DNA of 64,000 nucleotides from the NCBI GenBank assembly GCA_910573755.1, contig CAJTBO010000017.1:1-64000 (forward strand), in the 5' to 3' direction. This DNA comes from Lachnospiraceae bacterium. Lineage in GTDB: Bacteria > Bacillota > Clostridia > Lachnospirales > Lachnospiraceae. Below the pieces are notes generated by a model that saw only the letters and a program-made list of their open reading frames with translations, was not told where the DNA came from and did no database searches. The translations under genes were made by a program, and so were the position numbers. Positions 24,218 to 41,801 of this stretch are shown here, piece after piece; within the stretch, counting starts at the first letter, position 1; every line of letters begins with the position of its first letter.

Positions 24218-24393
24218 GGCATATAGGAAAGTTCGTCCTATATGACAAAACCCTCCGGGTAATGCGCACTGTGCGCATAAGAAAAACGGCTGCTGCCGCG
24301 CCAAATCGCGGCAGTGTAAATAATTTCGGGAAAATGGCATTCAGGGTACAAAAACAGCATTGACTTTTTCCGGTCCGGACTATAATATAATAT

Positions 24394-24413
24394 AAAGCGA
24401 AACGTTTCGCTTT
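24394..24413. promoter_or_regulatory. LacI-type operator (20-bp perfect palindrome)
   Basis: AAAGCGAAACGTTTCGCTTT is a perfect 20-bp palindrome with the central CG of LacI-family sites. TTGACT (24360-24365) and overlapping TATAAT boxes at 24381-24391 sit immediately upstream, so the repressor would limit its own transcription. An 18-bp identical core recurs before the kinase gene at 25623. Confidence 0.85.
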
Positions 24414-24513
24414 ATGTTCGGGCAGAACCGGCTGTTTTTGCAGCAAATGAAGAAGATATGTGTCAGGCACAGGAGTGATTATATTTTCCCGTGCAGGCAG
24501 AGAAGGAGCAGGT

Positions 24514-25515
24514 ATGGCGGCAACCATTCGCGACATCAAAGAGCAGACAGGGTTATCTCTGGCGACGATTTCCAAATATTTAAACGGCGGCAATGTGCTT
24601 CCGGAAAACAGGATGAAAATTGAGGCTGCGATCAAAGAACTCCACTATGAAGTGAATGAGATCGCAAGGGGGCTGGTGACAAACCGCACGCGGACGGTGG
24701 GAGTGCTTGCCTACAGTGTGGAGAGCATTTTCAACGGGACGCTCCTTCGGCATATCGGCAACAGTCTGCGGAAAGCGGGTTACGGGCTGATGATCTGTGA
24801 TTCCTGCGACGATCCGAAGATAGAGGCGGAGAATGTAAATTTTTTGCTGGGTAAAAAGGTGGACGGCATTATCGCGCTGCCTGTTTCCACCGAAACGGAT
24901 TCCCTGAAGAGCGCGAAAAAAGCGAAAGTGCCGGTGGTTTTACTGGATCGCCCCTCCCGGGACGCGGAGTTTGACTGCGTCAGGATCGATAACTGCCGGG
25001 CGGCTTATCAGGCGGTGAAGTTTTTGCTGGACAACGGGCACAAAAGAATAGGGATCGTGTGTTCCCGCACGGAATACACCGGAAGAGAGCGCTGCAAAGG
25101 CTACCGGAAGGCGATGGAGGAGGCGGGGTGTGTACTGCGCAAGGAGTATTGCGCATCGGGGACACATTCCATTGAGTTCGGATTTGAGGGAATGAGCAGG
25201 CTGCTTTCTTTGAAGGAGCGTCCTACGGCGGTTTTTATGACAAATTATGAGGTGGCGCTGGGGGCGGTGATGGCGCTGAATAAGACGAACCTTCATTGTC
25301 CGGAGGATATTTCACTGATGGGATTTGATGATCTGATCATGTCCCATGTGATCCATCCGCGGCTGCATATGGTGGTTCAGCCGATGAAGGAGATGGGAGA
25401 GAAGGCTGCGGAACTTCTGCTGGAGCGGATCGGGAGCGGGCAGCAGGAGATGGCGATGGAGATCGTGCTGGGGACGCGTATCAGTGAGGGGGATTCGGTT
25501 GCGGAGATCGGGTAG
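24514..25515 (+). CDS. LacI-family transcriptional repressor
   Basis: A 333-residue regulator. N-terminal helix-turn-helix and hinge (TIRDIKEQTGLSLATISKYL, AAIKELHYEVNEIARGL), then a periplasmic-binding-like effector domain (RTVGVLAYSVESIFNG, DGIIALPVSTE, VVLLDRPSRDAEFDCVRIDN, RIGIVCSR, SLMGFDDLIMS). ATG 24514 follows AGAAGGAGCAGG; the frame opens 54 nt earlier but without a ribosome site. Palindromes before this gene and the kinase are its likely operators, so it should respond to the sugar handled by the cluster downstream. Confidence 0.9.
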   Translation: MAATIRDIKEQTGLSLATISKYLNGGNVLPENRMKIEAAIKELHYEVNEIARGLVTNRTRTVGVLAYSVESIFNGTLLRHIGNSLRKAGYGLMICDSCDDPKIEAENVNFLLGKKVDGIIALPVSTETDSLKSAKKAKVPVVLLDRPSRDAEFDCVRIDNCRAAYQAVKFLLDNGHKRIGIVCSRTEYTGRERCKGYRKAMEEAGCVLRKEYCASGTHSIEFGFEGMSRLLSLKERPTAVFMTNYEVALGAVMALNKTNLHCPEDISLMGFDDLIMSHVIHPRLHMVVQPMKEMGEKAAELLLERIGSGQQEMAMEIVLGTRISEGDSVAEIG

Positions 25516-25622
25516 CCGGCAGGGAAAAAAGAGAGAGGGAGAAGGCTGCGGTAATAATTTTTTTCCTGCCGGTGCAGGCAGAATGTCAGGTTTCGCAGAA
25601 TCAGAAAAATATAAGTACGAAA

Positions 25623-25740
25623 AAGCGAAACGTTTCGCTTCAAATGTATTGACATAGAAAGAAAGGAGTATTATAATAAATGAAAATATAAGCGTAAATC
25701 AATGGAATTTTGTGAGTGCATAAAACGAAACGGTTTGTTT
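25623..25740 (+). promoter_or_regulatory. Promoter of the kinase operon flanked by two LacI-type operators
   Basis: Operator 1 AAGCGAAACGTTTCGCTT (25623-25640) lies just upstream of a near-perfect promoter TTGACA (25649-25654), 17-bp spacer, TATAAT (25672-25677). A weaker operator, AAACGAAACGGTTTGTTT (25723-25740), lies downstream beside the ribosome site TTGGAGG. The 100-bp spacing would allow repression by looping. Confidence 0.85.
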
Positions 25741-30610: not shown

Positions 30611-31459
30611 ATGTCATTGGTTACATCAAAACAACTGTTGCTGGATGCGCAGAAGGGCGGCTATGCGGTAGGCGCGTTTAATGTGGAGAATATGGAGATG
30701 GTGATGGCGGTGGTAAAGGCTGCCGGGGAGATGAAGGCGCCTGTTATTTTACAGACCACGCCTTCCACGATCCAATATGCGGGAATCGATATGTATTATG
30801 CCAATGTGAAGGCGGCAGCCATGCAGGCGCAGGTGCCGGTGGCGCTGCATCTGGATCATGGCAGCAGTTTTGCCCTTGCCATGCAGGCGCTGCGTGCCGG
30901 ATATACTTCCATTATGATCGACGGATCGAAAGAAGCCTTTGAGGAGAATATCGCGTTATCAAGAAAAGTGGTGGATGCCTGCAGGCCCTCCGGAATTCCT
31001 GTGGAGGCGGAACTCGGCAAGGTGGGCGGAAAGGAAGACGATCTGGAGTGCAATGATCCGGGCTATACGGATCCGGAAGATGCGGTGCGGTTTGTGGAGG
31101 AGGCACAGATCGATTCTCTGGCGGTTGCCATCGGTACAGCCCACGGCATCTACAAAGGGGAGCCGAAACTGGATCTGGAAAGGCTCTCCGAGATCAGAAG
31201 GAGGGTATCGATCCCGCTGGTGCTTCACGGTGCTTCCGGCGTGCCGGATGAAACAGTGCGGCAGTGTATCGGCAGAGGGATCTGCAAAGTAAATTTTGCG
31301 ACGGAACTCAGGATCGCCTACAGCGACGGCGTGAAGGAGTATCTGAAGGAGAATCCGGAGGCTTTTGATCCGAAGAAGTACGGGGCGCCGGGCATGAAGA
31401 AAGTGACAAAACTGGTAGCTGAGAAGATCAGGCTTTGCGGAAGCGAAGGGAAAGCCTGA
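30611..31459 (+). CDS. Class II ketose-bisphosphate aldolase (GatY/Fba-like)
   Basis: A 282-residue zinc aldolase. Zinc and catalytic residues: ALHLDHGSS, AELGKVGGKED, GTAHGIYKGEP and LVLHGASGVPDE, plus CKVNFATELR. It splits fructose- or tagatose-1,6-bisphosphate to DHAP and glyceraldehyde 3-phosphate, completing the path from kinase and dehydrogenase to glycolysis. The short 282-residue form fits the tagatose/GatY-KbaY group as well as FbaA. A terminator follows. Confidence 0.9.
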   Translation: MSLVTSKQLLLDAQKGGYAVGAFNVENMEMVMAVVKAAGEMKAPVILQTTPSTIQYAGIDMYYANVKAAAMQAQVPVALHLDHGSSFALAMQALRAGYTSIMIDGSKEAFEENIALSRKVVDACRPSGIPVEAELGKVGGKEDDLECNDPGYTDPEDAVRFVEEAQIDSLAVAIGTAHGIYKGEPKLDLERLSEIRRRVSIPLVLHGASGVPDETVRQCIGRGICKVNFATELRIAYSDGVKEYLKENPEAFDPKKYGAPGMKKVTKLVAEKIRLCGSEGKA

Positions 31460-31507
31460 GAGATAACTGCGGAAACTTCATGGAGCGGTTTTGATATGGA
31501 CTAAGAG

Positions 31508-31535
31508 GCGGAGAGTTTGATGGCTCTCCGCTTTT
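31508..31535 (+). terminator. Rho-independent terminator
   Basis: GCGGAGAG, 8-nt loop, CTCTCCGC, TTTT. It closes the LacI-controlled operon. Confidence 0.85.
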
Positions 31536-31536
31536 A

Positions 31537-32091
31537 GTGTATGACGGACATACTAGTATCAAAAAAGGTATTTTTGTTCCGATTGATGCGGATATTGATG
31601 GATTTGCGCTGCTTCAGGTTCAGTGTTCCAGCCTTGTATATTCTTATGGTACAGTTCTTTATGTTTGGGGCTTGACAGACATTATCCCGCATACATTCCA
31701 TATCTCGGTTCCACAGGGAGAAAATATTTCAAGATTAGTTCGAGATAATCAAAAGATAAAGGCTCATTATGTCATGAAGGGCTTTTACAATCTCGGCATT
31801 ACGGAAACGCAGTCTCCGCAGGGAGCGGTCATTCGTCTGCATGATAAAGAACGCTGCCTTTGCGATTTGATTAAAGACAGAAGTCAAATCGAAAAACAGC
31901 TTTATGTTCAGGCAATCAGGGATTATTTCAAAAGTCAGCCGGATATCCGTAAATTGTTGAAATATGGAAAAGCTTTTGGAATAAAAAAACAGCTCTGCGG
32001 CGATTTTTTTCTTCCGGGAAATCGTTATACAGGTAATATGCAGGACAGATATGGTAGGATAATTTTTGCGGGCAGAGACCGGCATACTTAA
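31537..32091 (+). pseudogene. Truncated AbiEi-like antitoxin (type IV TA remnant)
   Basis: The translation resembles the middle and C-terminal parts of AbiEi-type antitoxins: GIFVPIDADIDGFALLQVQC, a block VLYVWGLTDIIPHTFHISVP, then VIRLHDKERCLCDLIKDRS and LLKYGKAFGIKKQL. The usual N-terminal winged helix (about 40 residues) is absent, the frame begins right after the preceding terminator, and the last 30 residues look unrelated. No AbiEii toxin follows. I read this as a decayed copy whose 5' part was lost, next to the recombination switch. Confidence 0.6.
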
Positions 32092-32156
32092 AACGTTTCT
32101 GTCGGTTTGTATATCTGATCGTACAAAAATTTTATATTCTGCAGGAGGAAGGAACG

Positions 32157-33002
32157 ATGAAAAGACGCATGATAACAAACCGGAAATTAGCGGAATTCGG
32201 ACAGTACCTGAGAGAGGAGGAGTATGGGAAGGCAACAATGGAAAAATATCTGCGGGAGGTCGGATACTTTTGCCGATGGCTGGAAAACCGGAAGGTGGAT
32301 AAAAAAATCACTGCGGAATTCAAGAATGACCTGCAGGAAAAGGGATATGCACCGTCTACGATCAACGGGAAGCTTTCGGCTTTAAATGCTTTTTTCCGCT
32401 TTGCCGGATGGGAGGAGTGCAGAGTAAAATTCCTGCGCATCCAGAGGCAGATATTTAGAGAACAGAAAAAAGAACTGAACAGGGAGGAGTACAGAAGGCT
32501 TTTAAAGGCGGCGAAAGACAGGAAAAACGAGAGACTGGCGCTTCTTATGGAGACGATCTGCGGCACAGGCATCCGGATCAGCGAGATGTCCTATATTACT
32601 GTGGAAGCGCTGAGGAGAGGGCGGGCGGAGGTTGTACTGAAAGGAAAGGTGCGCATTATCTTCCTCTCGGGAAAACTTTGCCGCAGGCTGTCAGAATATG
32701 CTGAAAAAACAGGGATCGTCTCGGGAGAAATTTTTCTGACCGGAAACGGCAGGAGACTTTCGAGAAGACAGATATGGCGGGAGATGAAGGGACTCTGCCA
32801 ATATGCCGGCCTGGAGGAGGCAAAGGTATTTCCGCACAATCTCCGCCATCTGTTTGCCGAGGAATTTTACCGGGTGAGCGGTGATATTGTAAAACTCGCG
32901 GATGTGTTGGGACACAGTTCGATCGAAACGACAAGAATCTACCTGAAGACCAGCGGAAAAGAACATACACGTTATCTGGATAATATGGGGCTGTTGATGT
33001 AG
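32157..33002 (+). CDS. Small tyrosine recombinase beside an invertible element
   Basis: A 281-residue XerC/D-like recombinase: SAM-like core-binding domain (about residues 10-85), then the catalytic domain with Arg in ICGTGIRISEM, Lys in LKGKVRIIF, the HxLR box in PHNLRHLFAEE, a second His in DVLGHSSIETT and the nucleophile Tyr in TRIYLKTS. AGGAGG upstream supports ATG 32157. Its TAG stop (33000-33002) lies inside the left 31-bp inverted repeat, so inversion leaves the protein unchanged. It is the natural candidate to flip the segment. Confidence 0.9.
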   Translation: MKRRMITNRKLAEFGQYLREEEYGKATMEKYLREVGYFCRWLENRKVDKKITAEFKNDLQEKGYAPSTINGKLSALNAFFRFAGWEECRVKFLRIQRQIFREQKKELNREEYRRLLKAAKDRKNERLALLMETICGTGIRISEMSYITVEALRRGRAEVVLKGKVRIIFLSGKLCRRLSEYAEKTGIVSGEIFLTGNGRRLSRRQIWREMKGLCQYAGLEEAKVFPHNLRHLFAEEFYRVSGDIVKLADVLGHSSIETTRIYLKTSGKEHTRYLDNMGLLM

Positions 33003-33058
33003 ACAGAATTCACATTCTGTCCACAAAAGAAATCGCACAACAACATATTTTTTTTGTT

Positions 33059-33088
33059 ATTATAGCATATCTGACAGCTTATTGGCAA
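33059..33088 (-). promoter_or_regulatory. Promoter inside the invertible segment
   Basis: Minus strand: TTGCCA (33088-33083), 18-bp spacer, TATAAT (33064-33059). As drawn it transcribes leftward, antisense to the recombinase. After inversion its -10 would sit near 33213-33218 and fire toward the gene at 33331. Confidence 0.8.
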
Positions 33089-33202
33089 TAATATTCCTGT
33101 ATCAGGGAATATTTCAGGGCACGGGAGATAAAGCCGAAATGTTTTATTTCGACTTTTGTTTTTCGTATTCTAAAATAAATGACCGGACAGCTGCAAAAGA
33201 TG

Positions 33203-33239
33203 GCAGCATTTGGGTATCGGACCCAAATGCTGCTTTTTT
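33203..33239 (+). terminator. Terminator inside the invertible segment
   Basis: GCAGCATTTGGGT, loop ATCGG, ACCCAAATGCTGC (13-bp perfect stem) and TTTTTT. It would stop rightward readthrough from the recombinase in the present orientation and would face the other way after inversion. Confidence 0.9.
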
Positions 33240-33330
33240 GATGCCGTTTTTTGTGGACAGAATGTGAATTCTGTCTACAAGATACATGAGGAAATTCAGG
33301 AGATTTTCCGGACAGAAGGTGAAAAGCGGT

Positions 33331-33738
33331 ATGAAAGAATCGGAAATAAAAATCGAGCCGGAAAAAATCTTTTTCCGGAACAGCGGGATCATGATGGAAG
33401 TGTCACAGAACGAAAAATGCAGGATTCCCTATCGGGATATTGTCTGGGCGTATGTGAAAACGGGTAAAGACGGGGAGGAAAAGCACGGGGAGCCGAGACT
33501 TGCGGATATCACGGAAAGCACGAAGGGGGATCTGATTGTTTATGACAGGCGGCATTTCGGATGGACGATCGGGACCGGCAGGGTGGACCGGGAGGCGGGC
33601 GCCCTGCTGAAAGAACTCTGCCTGCATGCCCCTTATATTGTGGCAGGCGGGCAGGACTGGTTTGATGATTCAGAAGATACTGATTTTGGCATGGTAGAAG
33701 AAATGGTAGAACTTATGAGGGCATGCGGCAAGGGTTAG
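33331..33738 (+). CDS. Hypothetical protein, first gene after the switch
   Basis: A 135-residue soluble protein with no signal or membrane segment. A beta-rich stretch (IFFRNSGIMMEV, KCRIPYRDIVWAYVK, GDLIVYDRRHFGWTIGTGRV) recalls a PH-like or LytTR-like fold, but I do not recognise the family. ATG 33331 lies 52 bp beyond the right inverted repeat; its end overlaps the upstream extension of the next frame, with the next ATG 26 bp after the stop. It would be the first gene expressed when the promoter is flipped. Confidence 0.7.
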   Translation: MKESEIKIEPEKIFFRNSGIMMEVSQNEKCRIPYRDIVWAYVKTGKDGEEKHGEPRLADITESTKGDLIVYDRRHFGWTIGTGRVDREAGALLKELCLHAPYIVAGGQDWFDDSEDTDFGMVEEMVELMRACGKG

Positions 33739-33764
33739 CGCCGTGCCAAAAGGGGGATACGGCT

Positions 33765-35015
33765 ATGCCGGAAAAAGTATTGCAGATACAGATGCTTGGC
33801 GGATTTTCCATGCACTATGGAAATGAAGCTGTTGTAATGAACAAGGCAGGAAGTTCAAAATCCGTAAGGCTTCTTCAGATGCTTCTTTTGTCTGTGCCGA
33901 AAGGGATTTCCAAAATCGAGATCATGGATAATCTGTACGGCTGGAATGAAAAGTCGGATACGGCTAACCGCAATAAAAATCTGAATAACCTGATCTACCG
34001 TCTGAAGGGACAGCTGGCGGCAGGGGGTTTACCGGAACAGGATTATGTGGAAATCAGGGAGGGAATGTGCTGTTTTAAGAGTAAAATCCCTATCAAAATG
34101 GATATTCTTGAATTTGAAGAGACGATCCAGCAGGCGAGACGGGAAAAAGGGGCGGGGCGGAGTAATCTTCTCTGGCGGGCGAACGAGATCTACCGCGGGG
34201 AACTGCTCCCGGCGAACCTGTCAGAAGTGTGGTTTTTTCAGAAGAGCAGATATTATAAGGCTCTGTATGTCTGGGCCGTGGAGGAACTGGAGAGGGAACT
34301 TCAGAAAAACAGGGATTATAAAAACAGGCTGCTGCTTTATGCGAGGGCTGCGGCAATCTATCCTTTTGAGAACTGGCAGCTTCGGCAGATGCGCTGTAAT
34401 CTGGAACTGTACCGCTATGATGAGGCTTTGAACATCTATAATGAAACAATGGAGCTGTATGCCCGGGAAATGGGCGGAACTGCGCCGGCGGAGGAGATGC
34501 AGGAGTGTTTTGAGGCGTTGAAACTGATGGATGAAAATCACAGGAGAAGCACGGATGATGTGGAAGGCTGGAGAAATATGGACAAAGCATTCCGCGGGAA
34601 GCGGGGCGACATCATGCGGACGCTCCTTGCCGAGGAGGATGTAGAGGGGGCATACTACTGCAATTATCCGAGCTTTGTAGATTATTGCCACCTTGTGGTG
34701 AGGGCGAAGGTGAGAAACGAGTTTTCAGCGGTATTGATGTTTCTGACCCTGAGCCAGAAGAAGGCGCAGAAGCCCGTGGATCTGCCGGAGGAGATGCAGC
34801 TTTTAAAGGAAGTTCTGGGAGGGTGCCTTCGCGTCGGGGATGCCTACACCAGATACGGGAACCGGCATTTTATTTTGATGCTTGTGAATACGGAGATGGA
34901 GTACTGCGGCACTATTTTCAGAAGAGTAGAGACGGCTTATACGAAAAGGGCTGGAAAAGGTGATCTGTGGTATTATGCGGATATGACGCAGGAACTCAGA
35001 AGATCGCTGGTGTAG
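33765..35015 (+). CDS. SARP/BTAD-type regulator with degenerate GGDEF-like C-terminus
   Basis: A 416-residue regulator. Residues 1-90: OmpR-like winged helix (IQMLGGFSMHYGNEAVVM, ISKIEIMDNLYGWNEKSDTANRNKNLNNLIYRL). Residues 110-250: BTAD tetratricopeptide domain (LWRANEIYRGELLP, YDEALNIYNETMELYAREMG). The last 130 residues resemble a nucleotide-cyclase/GGDEF fold (VGDAYTRYGNRHFILMLVNT), but the GG[DE]EF loop reads GNRHF, so it is probably sensory or structural. AAAAGGGGG precedes ATG 33765. It is in line after the invertible promoter and two genes before the giant surface protein. Confidence 0.8.
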   Translation: MPEKVLQIQMLGGFSMHYGNEAVVMNKAGSSKSVRLLQMLLLSVPKGISKIEIMDNLYGWNEKSDTANRNKNLNNLIYRLKGQLAAGGLPEQDYVEIREGMCCFKSKIPIKMDILEFEETIQQARREKGAGRSNLLWRANEIYRGELLPANLSEVWFFQKSRYYKALYVWAVEELERELQKNRDYKNRLLLYARAAAIYPFENWQLRQMRCNLELYRYDEALNIYNETMELYAREMGGTAPAEEMQECFEALKLMDENHRRSTDDVEGWRNMDKAFRGKRGDIMRTLLAEEDVEGAYYCNYPSFVDYCHLVVRAKVRNEFSAVLMFLTLSQKKAQKPVDLPEEMQLLKEVLGGCLRVGDAYTRYGNRHFILMLVNTEMEYCGTIFRRVETAYTKRAGKGDLWYYADMTQELRRSLV

Positions 35016-35032
35016 CGGGTAAAGCATGTATG

Positions 35033-35062
35033 CCCGGAAGGTGCAAATATGTGTTTTCCGGG
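35033..35062 (+). terminator. CCCGGAAGGTG-type hairpin, copy 1
   Basis: CCCGGAA at 35033 and TTCCGGG ending at 35062 with inner GTGCA/TGTGT pairing. No T-run follows, so termination is uncertain. A related hairpin lies at 35722-35751, on the other side of an Rpn remnant. Confidence 0.45.
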
Positions 35063-35211
35063 AGGAATTCATTAAAAAATGTTGCGGCGGCAGATTATTT
35101 GTAGTAGTATATAAATACATATCTGGGAACTTCTGATGGTATCATTTCTGTCACGTTCGTGAATCAAAAGACTCCCTTATATGAAAAAACAGAATAAGGG
35201 AGGAAGAAGGC

Positions 35212-35595
35212 GTGGGAAAAGCTGTCAGGCAGTTTCATTCGGAACTGGAAGCTGTTTTCGAGTTTTTGAGATATTCGGAGGATAAGGAAGCCCTGAAGGT
35301 GAAAATGACGGAACATAAAGGAAAGTATGAAGAATTGAGCAATCAGGCGAAGGTGCTGCTGATGCAGTTGTCCGGTATTGACGCATTGCCGGATATAGGG
35401 GAAGAAGAATTTAAGAAAGGAGAGTTCAGCATGTGTAAAGCATTTGCGGATATGAAAGAGGAAGGAAAGATAGAAGGAAAGATAGAAGGAAAGATAGAGG
35501 GAAGAGCGGAGGAAATAGTCGAGTCAGGTTATGAATTCAATTTATCCGAAACGGATATTCTGGAAAGACTGCAGAAAAAACTGGATATCTCCTAG
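35212..35595 (+). pseudogene. Rpn-family nuclease C-terminal fragment
   Basis: A 127-residue frame with GTG start after AGGGAGGAAGAAGG. It matches the C-terminal part of Rpn/PD-(D/E)XK transposase-like proteins: LEAVFEFLRYSEDKEALKVK, KVLLMQLSG, then the family's Glu-Gly-Lys run (EGKIEGKIEGKIEGRAEE, encoded by three copies of a 12-bp unit). The N-terminal nuclease core is missing. It may still be translated, but I treat it as a fragment. Flanked by two similar hairpins. Confidence 0.6.
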
Positions 35596-35721
35596 GAGGA
35601 GGCACAGAAGTTTTTGACAGTGTATGGGAAAAGCAAGTCTGACGGACAGTCGGAAATAAATACGGGAGATGGGCGGTATATTCTGTGAAAGCAGATAAAG
35701 AGAAAGCCTGTATTATTAGAT

Positions 35722-35757
35722 ACCCGGAAGGTGTGAAAGCACTTTCCGGGTAAAATT
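35722..35757 (+). terminator. CCCGGAAGGTG-type hairpin, copy 2
   Basis: ACCCGGAAGGTG, short loop, CACTTTCCGGGT then AAAATTTT. It lies in the 329-bp gap between the Rpn fragment and the giant gene. The rest of that gap (35758-35924) shows no confident promoter; GGAGGTGAT near 35870 could serve a 10-codon leader frame but this is weak. Confidence 0.55.
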
Positions 35758-35924
35758 TTGCCTGAAATTGAAAAAGAAAGTTGTCTGATGGGAAATGAGG
35801 CAGTTCGCGGGATACCTTTTTTGATACGATTATTTCAAGATAGAAATATCTGCGCAGTGACTTTCCAACGGAGGTGATGTGCTGAAGGGAAGTTCAAAAA
35901 TTATATTCTAAGAAAGGAGAGATT

Positions 35925-38900
35925 ATGATGAAGTTCAAAAGATGGAAGAAAATGATTGTTATGCTGATGATAGCGACCATGTTCCTCCAGAACGTAGTTG
36001 TGTACGCGGACGACGGTACGAGTACGATGCCGTCACAGACGGAAACGCCGGATGCGCGGACAGCTGCGGAAGAAGAATCGACGACATCGGAGACACCGAC
36101 GGACGACACATCCTCTGTAATAGAGGCGGATGGCAGTGGTGATGCCGATAATCCGGTTGATTCGGACGGAAAAGGCGACGCCGATCATCCGGATGATCCG
36201 GATGGGAAAGCCGATGCCAATAATCCGGATAATTCGGACAGGAAAGATGATGACGAAGATTCGAAAGAAGTAACCGAATCGGTCAATAACGAAGCCAACG
36301 GCAACGATGTTGACACAGATGAGGGAACAGACGAAGAAACGCAAGAGACCGAAACGGTCAACGATGAAGTGCCGGAAGAGGTGAAAGCGTTTTTGGACGC
36401 GGTGGCGAAACTGCCGGCACCCGAGGACGTGACAAAAGAGAACGCTGAGGAGACCGGTGAACAGGTCAAAGCGGTATTTGATCTGTATGACATGTTAGTT
36501 GAGGTTGATCTCGGCTATGAAGAGCGCGAAGACGTGGCGGAGGCGATGGAAAAAGCCAATGCAGTCTTTGAGGCGGTGCTGATGGCGGAGGAGATTGACG
36601 ACAGTGTCATATTCAGTACTGTGGTAAAAACCGACAATGTGACTGAGACAGCATACAGCAAGTTTAACCCCAATACCTCAACATCCAATACGGTAAGTGG
36701 TTACTGGGCGGAAGACGGCCACGGGACGGTTCTTCTCACCGAAGAGAATCCTACCGCTACCGATGTAGCGTTCTGTCACTACTGGGGAGCTCATTTTGCC
36801 GGCTGGCCTAACGGCTTTCAGATGATTACTGCTAGTAGTAGCAACCCTGATGTTGCGACCGCTACAGCCAGAAGTTCTGAGAATGGCCTGATTGTGGATT
36901 TTCAGAAGGGAACTGTTGAGGGAACAGCGAATATCACGATCGAGTTTACGATTACAACCCTGCGGCCCACCGCGAACATCGCGTCCAGCGATCAGACATA
37001 TGCGGGGTTTAATGGGTGTCTCTACTATACTGTTACCAACGGTAGAGGCGGCACGGTGACGCCGGTTATTCCTGATTACCCAAAACCTATTAATTTGCAG
37101 GATATTAAGGTTACCACCCGTTGTACTTATAACTCGAACAATAACATTTTCTATAGTGAGGGATGCTATCAAGTACCTCGCAAATTGTCCGAACATCCCG
37201 ACGGTTATGTATGTTCGGACATTCGGGAAAATAAGGGAGAACTTGATACTGGTAATTTATTGGCAAGATATCCTTATGCGTGTACGCTGACCCTGAACAG
37301 AGAGTACTGGGTTGATTATTTTAACCAAGTTCTCAAATCTAATAATATTAATAAAACGCATTATCTCAACACCTTGCAGAATTCCAGCGAGACAACGATG
37401 ACTCTTTTGTATAATGCTGAGAAGGATCAATGGGATTACGATACGGATTCTTTGGAGGTTTATGTAATCGAATCTGCCCCTGGCACATCCTATACCGTTA
37501 ATCACACGTACTATACCAACGGGAAGTGTGATGGAACTGTAACGGAGAGCATTTCCGGTGTGAAAACGGGACAGACGATCTATGCCGAAAATATTACCAA
37601 GAAGCCGGAGTACAACAACAATACCTATGAGTACAAGTCCGCCGATCCCGCTTCTTTGAAGCTGGTGACTGCTGCAACGGATAATGTCATCACTCTGCGG
37701 TATGAGCGGGAGAACATTCCCGGTGCTCCTGCCGAGAAAGAAGCGGAGACCATTTTAAGCGGCAGATATACCGTCAAGGTGAGGTGTACTAACGAAAAAC
37801 GCGGGCACACTCTTGGTGAGAAGGATTACAGCATTACGGCGGCGGATATTACCGGTATTTCTGAAGTGAGGAAGAACAATTCAGGCAAATGGGAAGTTGA
37901 AGTTTACTCTACCAATAACACATTTATTAGCAAGTTCAATGATGAGACTAATGTCAACTGCATGCACGACGAGAAATCAGGTGGCTTCAGCATCAAGTTG
38001 GTTTGGAACGGCAGTGCATGGACGTATGAGAACACCTCTTATACCCGTACGGTTGAGACAGAGTGCCATCCCGAAACCGGCAGGGCGATCACCTACACCG
38101 TGGTCTACAAGGCAAATGACGGTGAAAAGAATGAGGTCAGCAATCTGCCTGCGTCCGAGAGTAAGCAGGGAACCGCACCCGGTTCTGTAGATTTCGTTGT
38201 CTCCAAGCAGATTCCTATCCGCGACGGCTACGAGTTCGCAGGCTGGGCTGTGCAGGGCACGACGAAGAACGGCGGCGACAAGCTTACTGTAACGGGCAGT
38301 GAGTATGCAGACAGCGTAACAGAATACCTGTACGCTACATGGGCGGAGAAACCTAATAAGCCCGTGATTCCCGGAGATAAAGGAAAACTCCGTGTTCTGG
38401 TGGCATGCGACAGCGTGGAAAGCGGTCACAGGGGCAAAAAGGAAAAACTGCGTCTGCGGACGGTGCAGAATGGGATTACAGAGTATACCGACGGTGAAGT
38501 GGTCAAGACTGAAAAGTACGGCTACGACTGGGAGTATACGGTTACCCTTCATAAGAGCGATTTTGCAGACCGGTTTCAACATAATAAGAATGATGACCAC
38601 AAATATGTGGAGAACACCAAAGATACCGTGAATGTGACATTCTACTACAGGAACGGCGAGTGGGATTATGAGAATCTCAAGACTCACAATTCCGATGTGG
38701 AGATTGTTTATGAAAAGAACGGCAGCGATGATTATTTTTGCAACTATGTAGTGTACCATGTGGAACCTAAAACGACCACTAAGACCCCTAAAATAGAAGT
38801 CAAAAAGTCCAATACGGACTTTAAGGTGGATCCGGAGAGCGGAAATGCTAAAGTAGACTACACTGTAACTATTAAGAATGTCAGCGGCTTTGATATCTAC

Positions 38901-41546
38901 GGATTGAGGCTGACTGATACCCTGACCCCGACTCTTACGAAGACGGGGAACGGCGAAGGTACGCCCGGCGCGGCTTACACCTTTAGCAACTGGAAAGTTG
39001 ATGGAAAAGAGATCACACCTATAAGCGGCGGGGCTGGTGAGTTGGAGCATGAACTTGGGATTCTGCCCCGAAATACAATCTTTGAGGATCAGCAGATTGT
39101 CACCTTGACTTATACCGTTGAAATCGAGACAAACGATGTTCCGGCCGAGGTGAAACTGGAAAACAAGGCGAAAGCGGATTCCTGGTCTAAAGAATACACA
39201 ACTTCGCGGCTTGCGAAAGTGGCAGCCGTCTTCCTCATGAAGACGCGAACTGTCGGTGACGACATCGGGTATCCCGATGAGCCGGATATTCATGGCAGTG
39301 CTACCAGCACTACCGGAGGTGATGTCAGCGGCAGCGGCAGCAGTACTGCAGGAGGCGAACTTCCGGCTAAGTACACTCTGACTTATGAGTGGAATCTGCC
39401 TGAGGGAGCGAGTCCTGTAAAGAATCTGCCTGTCGACACACGAAAGAGCCGGCCGGCGGGTTCCCACTTTATAGTGGATACCGTGAACAAAGCGGGCGAT
39501 GAAATAACTGGAAGCGACGGCAAGACTTATGTGTTCTCCGGCTGGCGGGTACCTGATGATGTTGCCACAGAAGAGAACGAGGGCGACTATAAAGGACAAT
39601 GTGTTATGCCCGCTCATGCGGTAATTATCACGGGTGAATGGATTCTTAAGGAAGCTGTACCCAAAAAGCCAACCACAGAAGATCTCCAGCAGGTAGGAGT
39701 TATGGTTAAATGTTCCGACAACTCCGAACACGACAGTGGAACCGGATGGTGGCAGCTGGGCGGTGAATTCAAAGATGGTAATTTGCACCCCTGGTATGAT
39801 GAGTGGCGCACCATCGGCGAGGTTACAAAGGTTGACGACACTTACCAGTGCATTGTAACCCTCCATGCTGAGCCGTGGGCGAATTTGCGTATCAACGGTC
39901 CGACCCTTACCAATATCAAGAAAAACGAAGGGATTGGGCACATTTTTGACGAAACGAAGACCGGCGGAAAAGAAATTCCGGTAACATTCACTTATGAGGA
40001 CGGCGCCTGGACGGCAGATAAAGAAGTTGCTGAAGTGTGGCTCAAGGAAGACACCGTGAAGAAGAACGTTGATATTTTCAAAGCGTTCTATGGTCCTGGC
40101 AAGGACGAAGTTGAAAGGATTAAGGATAACTTCAGCATCACCTATACCTACAAGCTGAATGGTAAGACCACGACCGGCACCCTGAATGGCAGGGACGCTG
40201 AATTTGTGGAGGGTGAAGAACTCTTTTTGGGCTGCGAAGCCGTGATGAAATGGACGGTTGAGTTCGAAATGAACAATGGCTCTACTAAGGACTCCGGTGC
40301 TGGTGAGATTTCCTTTGCAGAGACAGGCAAAGAGATTGATGGCTGGACATGGTACAATATCGATGAAACGCTGACAGATATACCCAATGCCAATATGAGC
40401 GGCTTCAGTCATCCGCAGTTCATCGCTGACGGTCACAAATCCATCGGTCTGAGCAACAACTACGAGCAGGACAATATGGTGACTATCACTGTCAGGTTTG
40501 TGGATGAGGAAGGCAACGTGGTTAAAAGCGTGACGATGGAAAATGTAAAGAAGGGCAGCGAGTACGATGTGGAGGAGGAGACCGAGAAGATTCCTGATGG
40601 CTACGAGAAAAACGGCGAGCCTATGGGCGATCCTGTATCCGGCATCGCTGACACAAACAAGACTATCATTGTTCCGGTGAAGACTATCACGTACACCGTG
40701 ACCTATACGGACGGTGTGAACGGCACAGCGTTTACGGATCAAGTGACAACGGGCTTGAAAGAGGGAGTTACGACTCCTGTATTTAGCGGAACACCCGGCC
40801 GAAGCGGTTATACTTTTGCAGGCTGGACACCGACGGTAGCGGAGATTGTGACAGGTAACGCAACTTATACCGCACAGTGGACTTTGATACCGGAGAACCC
40901 GACCACCCCGACTACACCTTCCGGAGGAGGCGGTGGAGGCGGAGGAGGTGGTGGAACACCGGATCCGACACCCGCACCTCCCACACCGGAGATCACACCG
41001 ATCATACCGGGACCTGTTCCCACAGCGGGACCTACGCCGGTCGTTCCGACAGTAACACCTGTAGCAGCTACACCGGCAGCACCGACACCGACTGCGGCGT
41101 TGGCAAGCCCGACACCGGAAGCGGTGGAGCTGGCGGATGAAGCGGTACCGCTTGCGGCGGAAGAAGAAAAACAGCCGGAAATGAAAATGGTGGATGAAGA
41201 AGAGACACCGTTAGCAGGCGGCAAAGGAGCAGCCTGGGCACTCATCAACTTCGCATTGATGAATCTGGCAATCTTTGAATCGGTAATGCTTCTGATCGGT
41301 TACTTTGTAAAGACAAAGAATGATGAAGAAGAGGAGAAGAGAAAACTGAAAAAGAAAGGCATATTCCGAATTATCAGCCTTCCGGTAGCGATCATCTCCC
41401 TTATCGTATTCATTCTGACAGAGGATATCACCCTGCCGACAGCATTTGTTGATAAGTATACGATCGTTATGCTGATCATCGCAATTGTGCAGACGGTTAT
41501 GGTAGCGCTCTCCAATAAGAAATATGCGGATGAGGAAGAAGCATAA
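35925..41546 (+). CDS. Giant cell-surface protein with InlB/Flg_new-type and DUF11-like repeats
   Basis: A 1873-residue secreted protein. Signal peptide 1-28 (MIVMLMIATMFLQNVVVYA). Residues 30-150: acidic Asp/Ser/Thr-rich low-complexity stalk with repeated DNPDxxDGKxDA units. Middle: several beta-rich modules, including Flg_new/InlB-B-like repeats (IRDGYEFAGWAVQG near 770; GRSGYTFAGWTPTVAEI near 1625), a DUF11-like module near 955 (FKVDPESGNAKVDYTVTIKN) and three modules ending in similar VTFYYRNGEWDYENL / VTFTYEDGAWT strands. Then a run of 11 Gly (about 1667), a Pro/Thr-rich stretch and three C-terminal membrane helices after TPLAG. Probably an adhesin. AAGGAGAG precedes ATG. Confidence 0.85.
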   Translation: MMKFKRWKKMIVMLMIATMFLQNVVVYADDGTSTMPSQTETPDARTAAEEESTTSETPTDDTSSVIEADGSGDADNPVDSDGKGDADHPDDPDGKADANNPDNSDRKDDDEDSKEVTESVNNEANGNDVDTDEGTDEETQETETVNDEVPEEVKAFLDAVAKLPAPEDVTKENAEETGEQVKAVFDLYDMLVEVDLGYEEREDVAEAMEKANAVFEAVLMAEEIDDSVIFSTVVKTDNVTETAYSKFNPNTSTSNTVSGYWAEDGHGTVLLTEENPTATDVAFCHYWGAHFAGWPNGFQMITASSSNPDVATATARSSENGLIVDFQKGTVEGTANITIEFTITTLRPTANIASSDQTYAGFNGCLYYTVTNGRGGTVTPVIPDYPKPINLQDIKVTTRCTYNSNNNIFYSEGCYQVPRKLSEHPDGYVCSDIRENKGELDTGNLLARYPYACTLTLNREYWVDYFNQVLKSNNINKTHYLNTLQNSSETTMTLLYNAEKDQWDYDTDSLEVYVIESAPGTSYTVNHTYYTNGKCDGTVTESISGVKTGQTIYAENITKKPEYNNNTYEYKSADPASLKLVTAATDNVITLRYERENIPGAPAEKEAETILSGRYTVKVRCTNEKRGHTLGEKDYSITAADITGISEVRKNNSGKWEVEVYSTNNTFISKFNDETNVNCMHDEKSGGFSIKLVWNGSAWTYENTSYTRTVETECHPETGRAITYTVVYKANDGEKNEVSNLPASESKQGTAPGSVDFVVSKQIPIRDGYEFAGWAVQGTTKNGGDKLTVTGSEYADSVTEYLYATWAEKPNKPVIPGDKGKLRVLVACDSVESGHRGKKEKLRLRTVQNGITEYTDGEVVKTEKYGYDWEYTVTLHKSDFADRFQHNKNDDHKYVENTKDTVNVTFYYRNGEWDYENLKTHNSDVEIVYEKNGSDDYFCNYVVYHVEPKTTTKTPKIEVKKSNTDFKVDPESGNAKVDYTVTIKNVSGFDIYGLRLTDTLTPTLTKTGNGEGTPGAAYTFSNWKVDGKEITPISGGAGELEHELGILPRNTIFEDQQIVTLTYTVEIETNDVPAEVKLENKAKADSWSKEYTTSRLAKVAAVFLMKTRTVGDDIGYPDEPDIHGSATSTTGGDVSGSGSSTAGGELPAKYTLTYEWNLPEGASPVKNLPVDTRKSRPAGSHFIVDTVNKAGDEITGSDGKTYVFSGWRVPDDVATEENEGDYKGQCVMPAHAVIITGEWILKEAVPKKPTTEDLQQVGVMVKCSDNSEHDSGTGWWQLGGEFKDGNLHPWYDEWRTIGEVTKVDDTYQCIVTLHAEPWANLRINGPTLTNIKKNEGIGHIFDETKTGGKEIPVTFTYEDGAWTADKEVAEVWLKEDTVKKNVDIFKAFYGPGKDEVERIKDNFSITYTYKLNGKTTTGTLNGRDAEFVEGEELFLGCEAVMKWTVEFEMNNGSTKDSGAGEISFAETGKEIDGWTWYNIDETLTDIPNANMSGFSHPQFIADGHKSIGLSNNYEQDNMVTITVRFVDEEGNVVKSVTMENVKKGSEYDVEEETEKIPDGYEKNGEPMGDPVSGIADTNKTIIVPVKTITYTVTYTDGVNGTAFTDQVTTGLKEGVTTPVFSGTPGRSGYTFAGWTPTVAEIVTGNATYTAQWTLIPENPTTPTTPSGGGGGGGGGGGTPDPTPAPPTPEITPIIPGPVPTAGPTPVVPTVTPVAATPAAPTPTAALASPTPEAVELADEAVPLAAEEEKQPEMKMVDEEETPLAGGKGAAWALINFALMNLAIFESVMLLIGYFVKTKNDEEEEKRKLKKKGIFRIISLPVAIISLIVFILTEDITLPTAFVDKYTIVMLIIAIVQTVMVALSNKKYADEEEA

Positions 41547-41555
41547 AAACATATA

Positions 41556-41801
41556 TCATTTATAACACAGCAACATGATAAAACCGGCGCCGGGGGAAAC
41601 CCTGGAGCCGGTTTTATCATGTTGCTGTGTTGATTCTTCCTGTGCCGGATTTTCTATTGGAATCGGTTCTGTAACAGGAAGTGTTGACTGTTGCTGACTG
41701 TTGCTTCCGCATCCTGTTATGGTACAAGTTAATAGCAGTATAAAGCCAGTCAGTAAAACGATAGTTTTCCGATCTATGGCAGACAGGGGGAATTTTAACA
41801 A
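41556..41801 (-). pseudogene. Small lipoprotein, possibly truncated
   Basis: An 81-residue frame with a convincing lipoprotein signal (RKTIVLLTGFILLLTCTITGC, lipobox TITGC) and a short Gln/Pro/Glu-rich tail. The only start is TTG 41801 and no ribosome site is visible. The last 20 codons run through the 25-bp palindrome next to the giant gene, which suggests the original 3' end was lost. It could be a short lipoprotein of unknown role. Confidence 0.4.
41564..41631. repeat. 25-bp perfect inverted repeat after the giant gene
   Basis: Arms 41564-41588 (AACACAGCAACATGATAAAA..., ending ACCGGC) and 41607-41631 are exact reverse complements over 25 bp, with an 18-nt loop that can pair further (CCGGGG/CCCTGG). 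It lies 17 bp after the giant gene's stop. It may serve as a terminator, but its length exceeds normal terminators and it lacks a T-run at the base. Confidence 0.8.

Follow-up and report, generated by a model that had tools for sequence, protein, structure and literature searches.

Can the short segment enclosed by inverted repeats at the 3' end of a tyrosine recombinase gene in a Lachnospiraceae genome act as a switch for the genes that follow it, and is the adjacent recombinase the enzyme that turns it? To answer this question we analysed a stretch of 64 kb (hereafter "the window"), which is part of a 4.9-Mb genome in 87 contigs, and compared the segment with its counterparts in related genomes. 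Our analysis indicates that the segment is very probably a phase-variation switch, in which the adjacent recombinase inverts a promoter and thereby turns an operon on or off. The features discussed below are collected in Table 1.

Table 1. Features of the predicted switch and of the operon behind it (window coordinates)
Feature	Position	Strand	Details
Tyrosine recombinase, 281 aa, presumed flipper of the switch	32157..33002	+	Phage_integrase 4.5e-26; SAM-like N-terminal domain
Left inverted repeat	32998..33028	+	28-bp site 32998-33025 (11-6-11, core TTCACA); recombinase stop codon within
Invertible promoter TTGCCA-18-TATAAT, TG before -10 (extended -10), predicted	33059..33088	-	Faces left = OFF; also in orthologs, rightward in paralog
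Long hairpin within inverton, T-rich right side, possible first terminator	33110..33178	+	Hairpins at corresponding place in relatives
Intrinsic terminator facing right, predicted	33202..33234	+	14 pairs and T tail; predicted to insulate the operon when OFF
Right inverted repeat	33249..33279	-	28-bp site 33252-33279
ORF150-like leader, ~135 aa, first operon gene	33331..33738	+	Open frame from 33286; start from homologs and ribosome-binding-like sequence
BTAD-domain transcriptional regulator	33765..35015	+	PF03704, 4.8e-06; open frame from 33723
127-aa ORF	35212..35595	+	Without family hit; without homolog among ORFs of compared loci
1873-aa surface protein, C-terminal FILTED domain, probable switch effector	35925..41546	+	NF052597, 7e-28
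Strong hairpin just past surface-protein gene	41564..41631	+	32-nt arms, 94% complementary, 4-nt loop

Xer-type tyrosine recombinases are characterized by a Phage_integrase domain with the R-K-HxxR-H-Y residues, and the window protein possesses both. R140, H227 and H253 are found in all of 85 aligned homologs, R230 and Y262 in 84, and K162 and K164 in 83; we take R140, K162/K164, H227, R230, H253 and Y262 to be the catalytic residues. Comparison with the ortholog from a sister genome (G004) yielded dN of 0.091 and dS of 0.840, values that indicate purifying selection on the recombinase. The best NCBIfam models are XerA, XerD and XerC, every one of them below its cut-off, and we rejected a function in XerC/XerD chromosome dimer resolution on the basis of the scores (123.1 vs. 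the cut-off of 329.6 for XerD, 121 vs. 335.15 for XerC) and of the paired inverted sites. Assignments to a phage or a plasmid module were also rejected: viral contigs gave one match of 22% over part of the recombinase, and plasmid records gave one of 63.9% over 34% of the query. When the sequences preceding six recombinase genes were aligned, no clear common promoter emerged.

A scan of the whole window for inverted pairs (arms of at least 20 nt, spacing of up to 2 kb, 12-base seeds) revealed four of them, and the pair at the end of the recombinase gene is the sole perfect one, the rest being 78-94% complementary. The two perfect 31-bp repeats enclosing 220 bp, described earlier in a sequence-only reading of this DNA, were thus borne out (31 bp each, 100% complementary, 220 nt between them). 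Within each repeat the outermost 28 bp, TGTAGACAGAA-TTCACA-TTCTGTCCACA, are likely the recombination site proper and consist of two 11-bp arms and a 6-bp core. Xer-type sites have two 11-bp arms around a 6-bp core that is common to the partner sites; by sequence, both window sites conform to this layout, which agrees with the proposal of the same reading that each repeat is a two-arm recombinase site. Its further claim, that the recombinase stop codon lies within the left repeat and that inversion is therefore harmless to the gene, also held: the stop codon is TAG at 33000-33002, and a simulated flip left both repeats and the recombinase C-terminus unaltered. The right repeat itself folds with -19.4 kcal/mol (z -6.5).

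Between the sites, the leftward promoter and the rightward stem terminator postulated earlier were both recovered. The promoter (33088-33059) agrees with the consensus at 11 of 12 positions, in addition to the TG before its -10 element, while the next best of the six promoter-like sites in 31400-36200 scores 10. The terminator region (33190-33245) folds with -28.7 kcal/mol (z -5.5), and the region of the long hairpin (33099-33180) with -19.4 kcal/mol (z -3.1). As the numbers of promoter-like sites (six vs. 7.2 expected from shuffles) and terminator-like sites (three vs. 3.6 expected) in 31400-36200 show no excess, both calls depend on how strong the individual sites are and on their conservation. 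The inverted sites surround a promoter recognized by consensus and conservation alone; both promoter and terminator are presumably functional. After the simulated flip the promoter precedes the operon, with the -10 element ending 113 bp before 33331.

According to the mechanism we propose, the neighbouring tyrosine recombinase would bind both 28-bp sites, and strand exchange at the core would invert the intervening 226 bp. In the OFF state, which is the one present in the window, the promoter would fire to the left, antisense to the 3' end of the recombinase gene, and the rightward terminator would block read-through from the recombinase into the operon. In the ON state the promoter would face right and drive the leader gene and the BTAD regulator, and probably the surface protein too. 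Both states are expected to occur within one strain.

The leader gene, which probably starts at 33331 and not at the first ATG past the repeat, gave zero hits in the Pfam and NCBIfam scans. Homologs of the BTAD regulator (65-82%) were found downstream of the switch in three other loci (L050, L051 and L036). The region 34900-36100, which leads from the regulator to the surface-protein gene, contains zero promoter- or terminator-like sites. The hairpin that follows the surface-protein gene is the probable end of the operon, although it was not called terminator-like under the rule of our terminator scan. The FILTED surface proteins of the window and of L050 and L051 have a common C-terminal domain and are otherwise alignable only in pieces, as if their middle part diversified fast.

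Recombinase matches at E 1e-60 or better were found in 70 of 397 genomes of the family, the genome of the window included. For the survey of neighbouring sites we pooled recombinase loci from the genus search, from a scan of the genome contigs, and from the better matches of the family search (29 best matches and 40 stretches, some with two matches), and merged loci that hold the same recombinase. This procedure resulted in 87 distinct places, two of which, with weak matches (33% and 30% identity), were dropped, so that all counts refer to 85 loci, including the window; nearly all matches weaker than approximately E 1e-75 were left out, as were six stronger ones, in G119, G171, G027, G065, G037:C83 and G279:C46. 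Sites were searched within 600 bp to either side of the recombinase gene, with a threshold of at least 23 matches of 28. An inverted pair is present just downstream of the recombinase in 60 of the 85 loci, its left site starting between -33 and +76 nt from the stop codon. Base-shuffled control regions reached a maximum of 21/28 in 164 trials, below the threshold of 23, and in the 600 bp upstream of the recombinase 3 of 84 loci reached 23/28, with sequences unlike the sites. The 25 loci without a pair at this threshold comprise 11 with at most 306 bp before the contig end and 14 in which over 310 bp follow the gene. There are 15 loci with recombinase identity of at least 58%, of which 11 possess a pair and two are at a contig end; the other two, L053 and L082, which are among the 14, have no pair at the threshold, even at a recombinase identity of 58%.

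The architecture of the sites is highly uniform across these loci. The 11-6-11 arrangement is the best fit in 58 of 60 pairs (core lengths from 5 to 8 were tried, with ties given to 6), and over these 58 pairs the middle 17 positions show 0 to 3 mismatches each, as opposed to up to 39 at the ends. The 6-bp core is identical within the pair in 59 of 60 cases, an agreement that is favoured to some degree by choosing pairs with an identity threshold, and 45 distinct cores occur over all loci. Cores that are alike within pairs and unlike between loci fit the homology need of strand exchange at the core. The recombinase stop codon falls within the left site in 22 of the 60 loci, evidently a recurrent feature across the family. 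Together with the architecture of the window segment, the adjacency of the recombinase and the core agreement in the 60 loci support the earlier interpretation of the segment as a switch. The 60 natural pairs with their 45 different cores also constitute a ready set for learning which site pairs recombine. In genomes with several cassettes, these seldom share a core; avoidance of shared cores within a genome was considered and rejected, as the numbers are too small and G004 has one sharing pair (L049 and L050).

The contigs themselves end more often on the downstream side, even when a downstream end at 241 bp that belongs to one of the two dropped loci is left aside. Contig ends lie within 310 bp of the recombinase downstream in 11 of the 85 loci and upstream in one, and the addition of six further matches near a contig start, assigned by coordinates (four downstream, two upstream), changes these numbers to 15 and 3; as a sign of mixed orientations this excess is suggestive only, since hairpins or repeats could also break contigs.

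Direct comparison of orientations is more informative. The promoter direction, called by a simple consensus score, could be assigned in 43 of the 60 loci, leaving 17 uncalled; 38 of the 43 are OFF, with the promoter pointing away from the downstream genes, and five are ON. The window's own locus is OFF in three of three genomes (the window, L050 and L051, orthologs with common upstream genes). The second cassette of the same genome (G000 C4, L047) is ON: its TTGCCA-18-TATAAT promoter faces right and points at the operon, at a distance from the site nearly equal to that in the window. The ortholog of L047 in the sister genome (G004 C4, L048) is OFF; the gene order around the two loci agrees, and both repeats are kept. 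Their interiors are 73.6% identical when one is read as reverse complement and 49.8% identical as read (mean of 43.5% and maximum of 55.6% in 50 shuffles), and on the two flanks, which are co-oriented, the identity is 85.6% and 82.3%. Both orientations of one locus are thus seen between sister genomes at the second locus, and the alignments indicate that this homologous locus has inverted since the two sister species parted; by extension, we infer that flipping also takes place within one strain. In another genome (G315, L088) two cassettes are reversed relative to each other. The remaining alignable interior pairs are co-oriented, except pairs with L047 and one short match of 34 bp. The sequence-only reading had named conservation of one orientation accompanied by decay of a repeat as evidence against a switch; what we found is an opposite orientation at the second copy, flipped with respect to its ortholog, and both repeats retained.

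These comparisons bear on the idea that the element is static, i.e. composed of paired operators or terminators, or of dead ends of a mobile element, with a recombinase that belongs to the element and flips nothing today. The single orientation shared by the window locus and its two orthologs would agree with it. We nevertheless regard it as very unlikely, given that the ortholog of the second copy is opposite in orientation with both sites kept, that the cores agree within pairs and differ between loci, as strand exchange needs, and that the recombinase is under purifying selection. The prevalence of OFF copies (38 vs. 5) could mean that flipping is rare or strongly biased.

A promoter that points mostly towards the recombinase could also matter mainly in its present direction, with antisense RNA restraining the recombinase and the operon relying on a promoter of its own. 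Both the consensus-like strength of the leftward promoter and its recombinase-ward direction in 38 of 43 called loci would be expected in this case. From the right repeat up to the surface-protein gene, however, our scans showed zero rightward promoter-like sites and one weak leftward site (34691-34663); moreover, in L047, which is ON, this promoter points at the operon. The antisense role as the main function is thus extremely improbable.

The predicted terminator shows a more restricted pattern. It opposes the promoter in 10 of the 11 paired loci of the window's clade, while in the 43 called loci the two are opposed in 23, agree in nine, lack a terminator in nine and are accompanied by a two-way terminator in two; in shuffled interiors a terminator appeared on the one tested strand in 52 of 300 cases. 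Insulation of the operon hence appears to be the rule in the window's clade only. In nine of the 11 loci of this clade, 30 to 33 bp separate the -10 element from the inner edge of the site; the others are L045 (~42 bp) and L040 (~83 bp; hand-derived values).

The position of the inverton at the 3' end of the recombinase gene in all 60 counted loci implies that orientation should alter the recombinase transcript. This opens a further, rather doubtful possibility, namely that the switch senses its own state, the orientation feeding back on the recombinase via the 3' end of its mRNA and antisense RNA, with the leader as a dedicated partner. In the OFF state the recombinase mRNA would be terminated and met by antisense RNA, and in the ON state it would be extended, with no antisense RNA; the leader gene, which follows eight site pairs in the window's genome and one sister genome, might e.g. 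report or lock the ON state. The excess of OFF copies (38/43) would be in keeping with such feedback on the recombinase transcript. If true, feedback would make the flipping rate specific to each state and account for the OFF excess.

The distribution of the leader, common to four operons in each of two genomes, provides a second lead. Among 299 genomes of the family, ORF150-like genes were found only in the window's genome, apart from one weak match (26%). In the genus they are present in two of nine genomes (G000, which is that of the window, and G004), with four copies each, and 8 of 8 copies sit after an inverted site pair, so that the window's genome contains three further pairs besides the one described above, each ahead of an ORF150-like gene. 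Five of the pairs are of the window type (G000 C17 and C4; G004 C88, C30 and C4), and three are of another type, like GTCGCAGAGTRTGAACCTCTGCG (G000 C21 and C3; G004 C38). In G000:C21:7049-8196 (L132), a second kind of switch, the segment between the GTCGCAGAGTGTGAACCTCTGCG sites holds its own recombinase of 343 aa, and genes for an ORF150-like protein, a BTAD regulator and a surface protein with a FILTED domain come after it. At G004:C38, sites of this kind enclose a related recombinase, and an ORF150-like gene is present as well. The best promoter-like site in both segments (8.4 each) points away from the operon, and C38 has another (8.1) pointing towards it. The third case, G000:C3:125787-126014 (L133), is a segment of 178 bp with its best promoter-like site (7.9) directed towards an ORF150-like gene and an exopolysaccharide operon of the Pel type. 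We saw no gene resembling a recombinase next to this site pair, and the C21 recombinase may flip the segment in trans.

The last case raises the question of whether the window segment, too, is flipped chiefly by another recombinase in trans, the neighbouring gene not being the main agent. Candidates exist, as nine matches to the recombinase are listed in its own genome (including itself and the second copy), and the C3 pair may be served by the C21 system. We consider this unlikely on three grounds. Sites of the window type (at most three mismatches) were found in that genome only at the two loci carrying the window's recombinase family, in a search that missed the divergent right site at C4; site and recombinase are adjacent in 60 loci; and the site arms are mostly GACAGAA-like in the window's clade but mostly CACATAA-like in the wider family. 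We therefore favour the neighbouring recombinase as the enzyme that does the flipping.

Among the genes behind these switches, PelF (365.7 bits, cut-off of 100) is encoded at C3, and the operon at G004 C88 (L049) encodes DUF3492/GT4 and PelG proteins. Similar operons of the Pel type are thus preceded in the two genomes by switches that use different recombinase systems, a pattern suggesting that switch modules have been exchanged. The operon of the ON copy (G000 C4) encodes a protein with an intact GGDEF motif, a BTAD regulator and a serine-rich protein of 1584 aa, whose matches to adhesins are weak and below the cut-off. Within this single genome, phase variation is connected with giant surface proteins, with regulators of the BTAD and GGDEF types, and with an exopolysaccharide operon of the Pel type. 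Downstream genes across the wider family are of many kinds: among the 57 scanned (of 59 picked, two short ones being left out) no Pfam family occurs in more than four, and the domains include GGDEF, BTAD, epimerase, polysaccharide, capsule and cell-wall-binding ones.

Invertible promoters between inverted repeats before surface genes have reportedly been described in gut bacteria by Jiang et al. 2019, using PhaseFinder, and the window segment resembles them in this respect. It also resembles the E. coli fim switch, where the promoter likewise lies within the invertible segment; the fim system has two recombinases (FimB and FimE), whereas the window segment has one, with its stop codon within the site. 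According to PMC2784873, the transcript of the fimE recombinase has a 3' end that changes with the orientation of the fim switch. The same source describes the cwpV switch of C. difficile, with 21-bp inverted repeats located 195 bp apart before a surface-protein gene, an intrinsic terminator proposed for the OFF state, and a recombinase of the XerC/XerD family, RecV, found by testing seven recombinases. The window's switch shares with cwpV/RecV the short inverted repeats, the surface-protein gene, the recombinase family, the OFF-state terminator and a similar site size; in contrast, the cwpV promoter lies outside the segment and only the terminator changes, while the window promoter is inside, and the window recombinase adjoins its switch, whereas RecV was identified among the seven tested. 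In a 2025 study of the defined gut community hCom2 (PMC11892184), invertons were called from reads in both orientations, and 32 of the 33 members of inverton group 139 are from Clostridia, nearly all near a tyrosine recombinase gene (invertase group 35). The window's switch presents the same combination of a Clostridia inverton with a tyrosine recombinase close by and may belong to group 139. The same text assigns the six repeat motifs of the PhaseFinder study to Bacteroidota and Akkermansia; the terms symbiosum, Lachno... and transcriptional activator were not found in its main text. Our literature search returned no paper joining phase variation, tyrosine recombinase, inverted repeats and Lachnospiraceae, none joining PhaseFinder, Clostridia and tyrosine recombinase, none joining pelF and invertible promoter, and none joining symbiosum and inverton. 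The description of the segment as a complete, compact phase-variation switch is accordingly right as to its make-up, and its kind is already known, not new: it is a new example of a type represented by fim, by the RecV switches of C. difficile and possibly by group 139. Its value lies in a self-contained ON/OFF cassette from a gut Lachnospiraceae lineage, with recombinase, sites, predicted promoter and predicted terminator in ~1.1 kb.

Elsewhere in the window, two copies of the palindrome AAAGCGAAACGTTTCGCTT (24390-24413 and 25622-25645) flank the gene 24460-25515, presumably encoding a LacI-type regulator, and are likely its operators.
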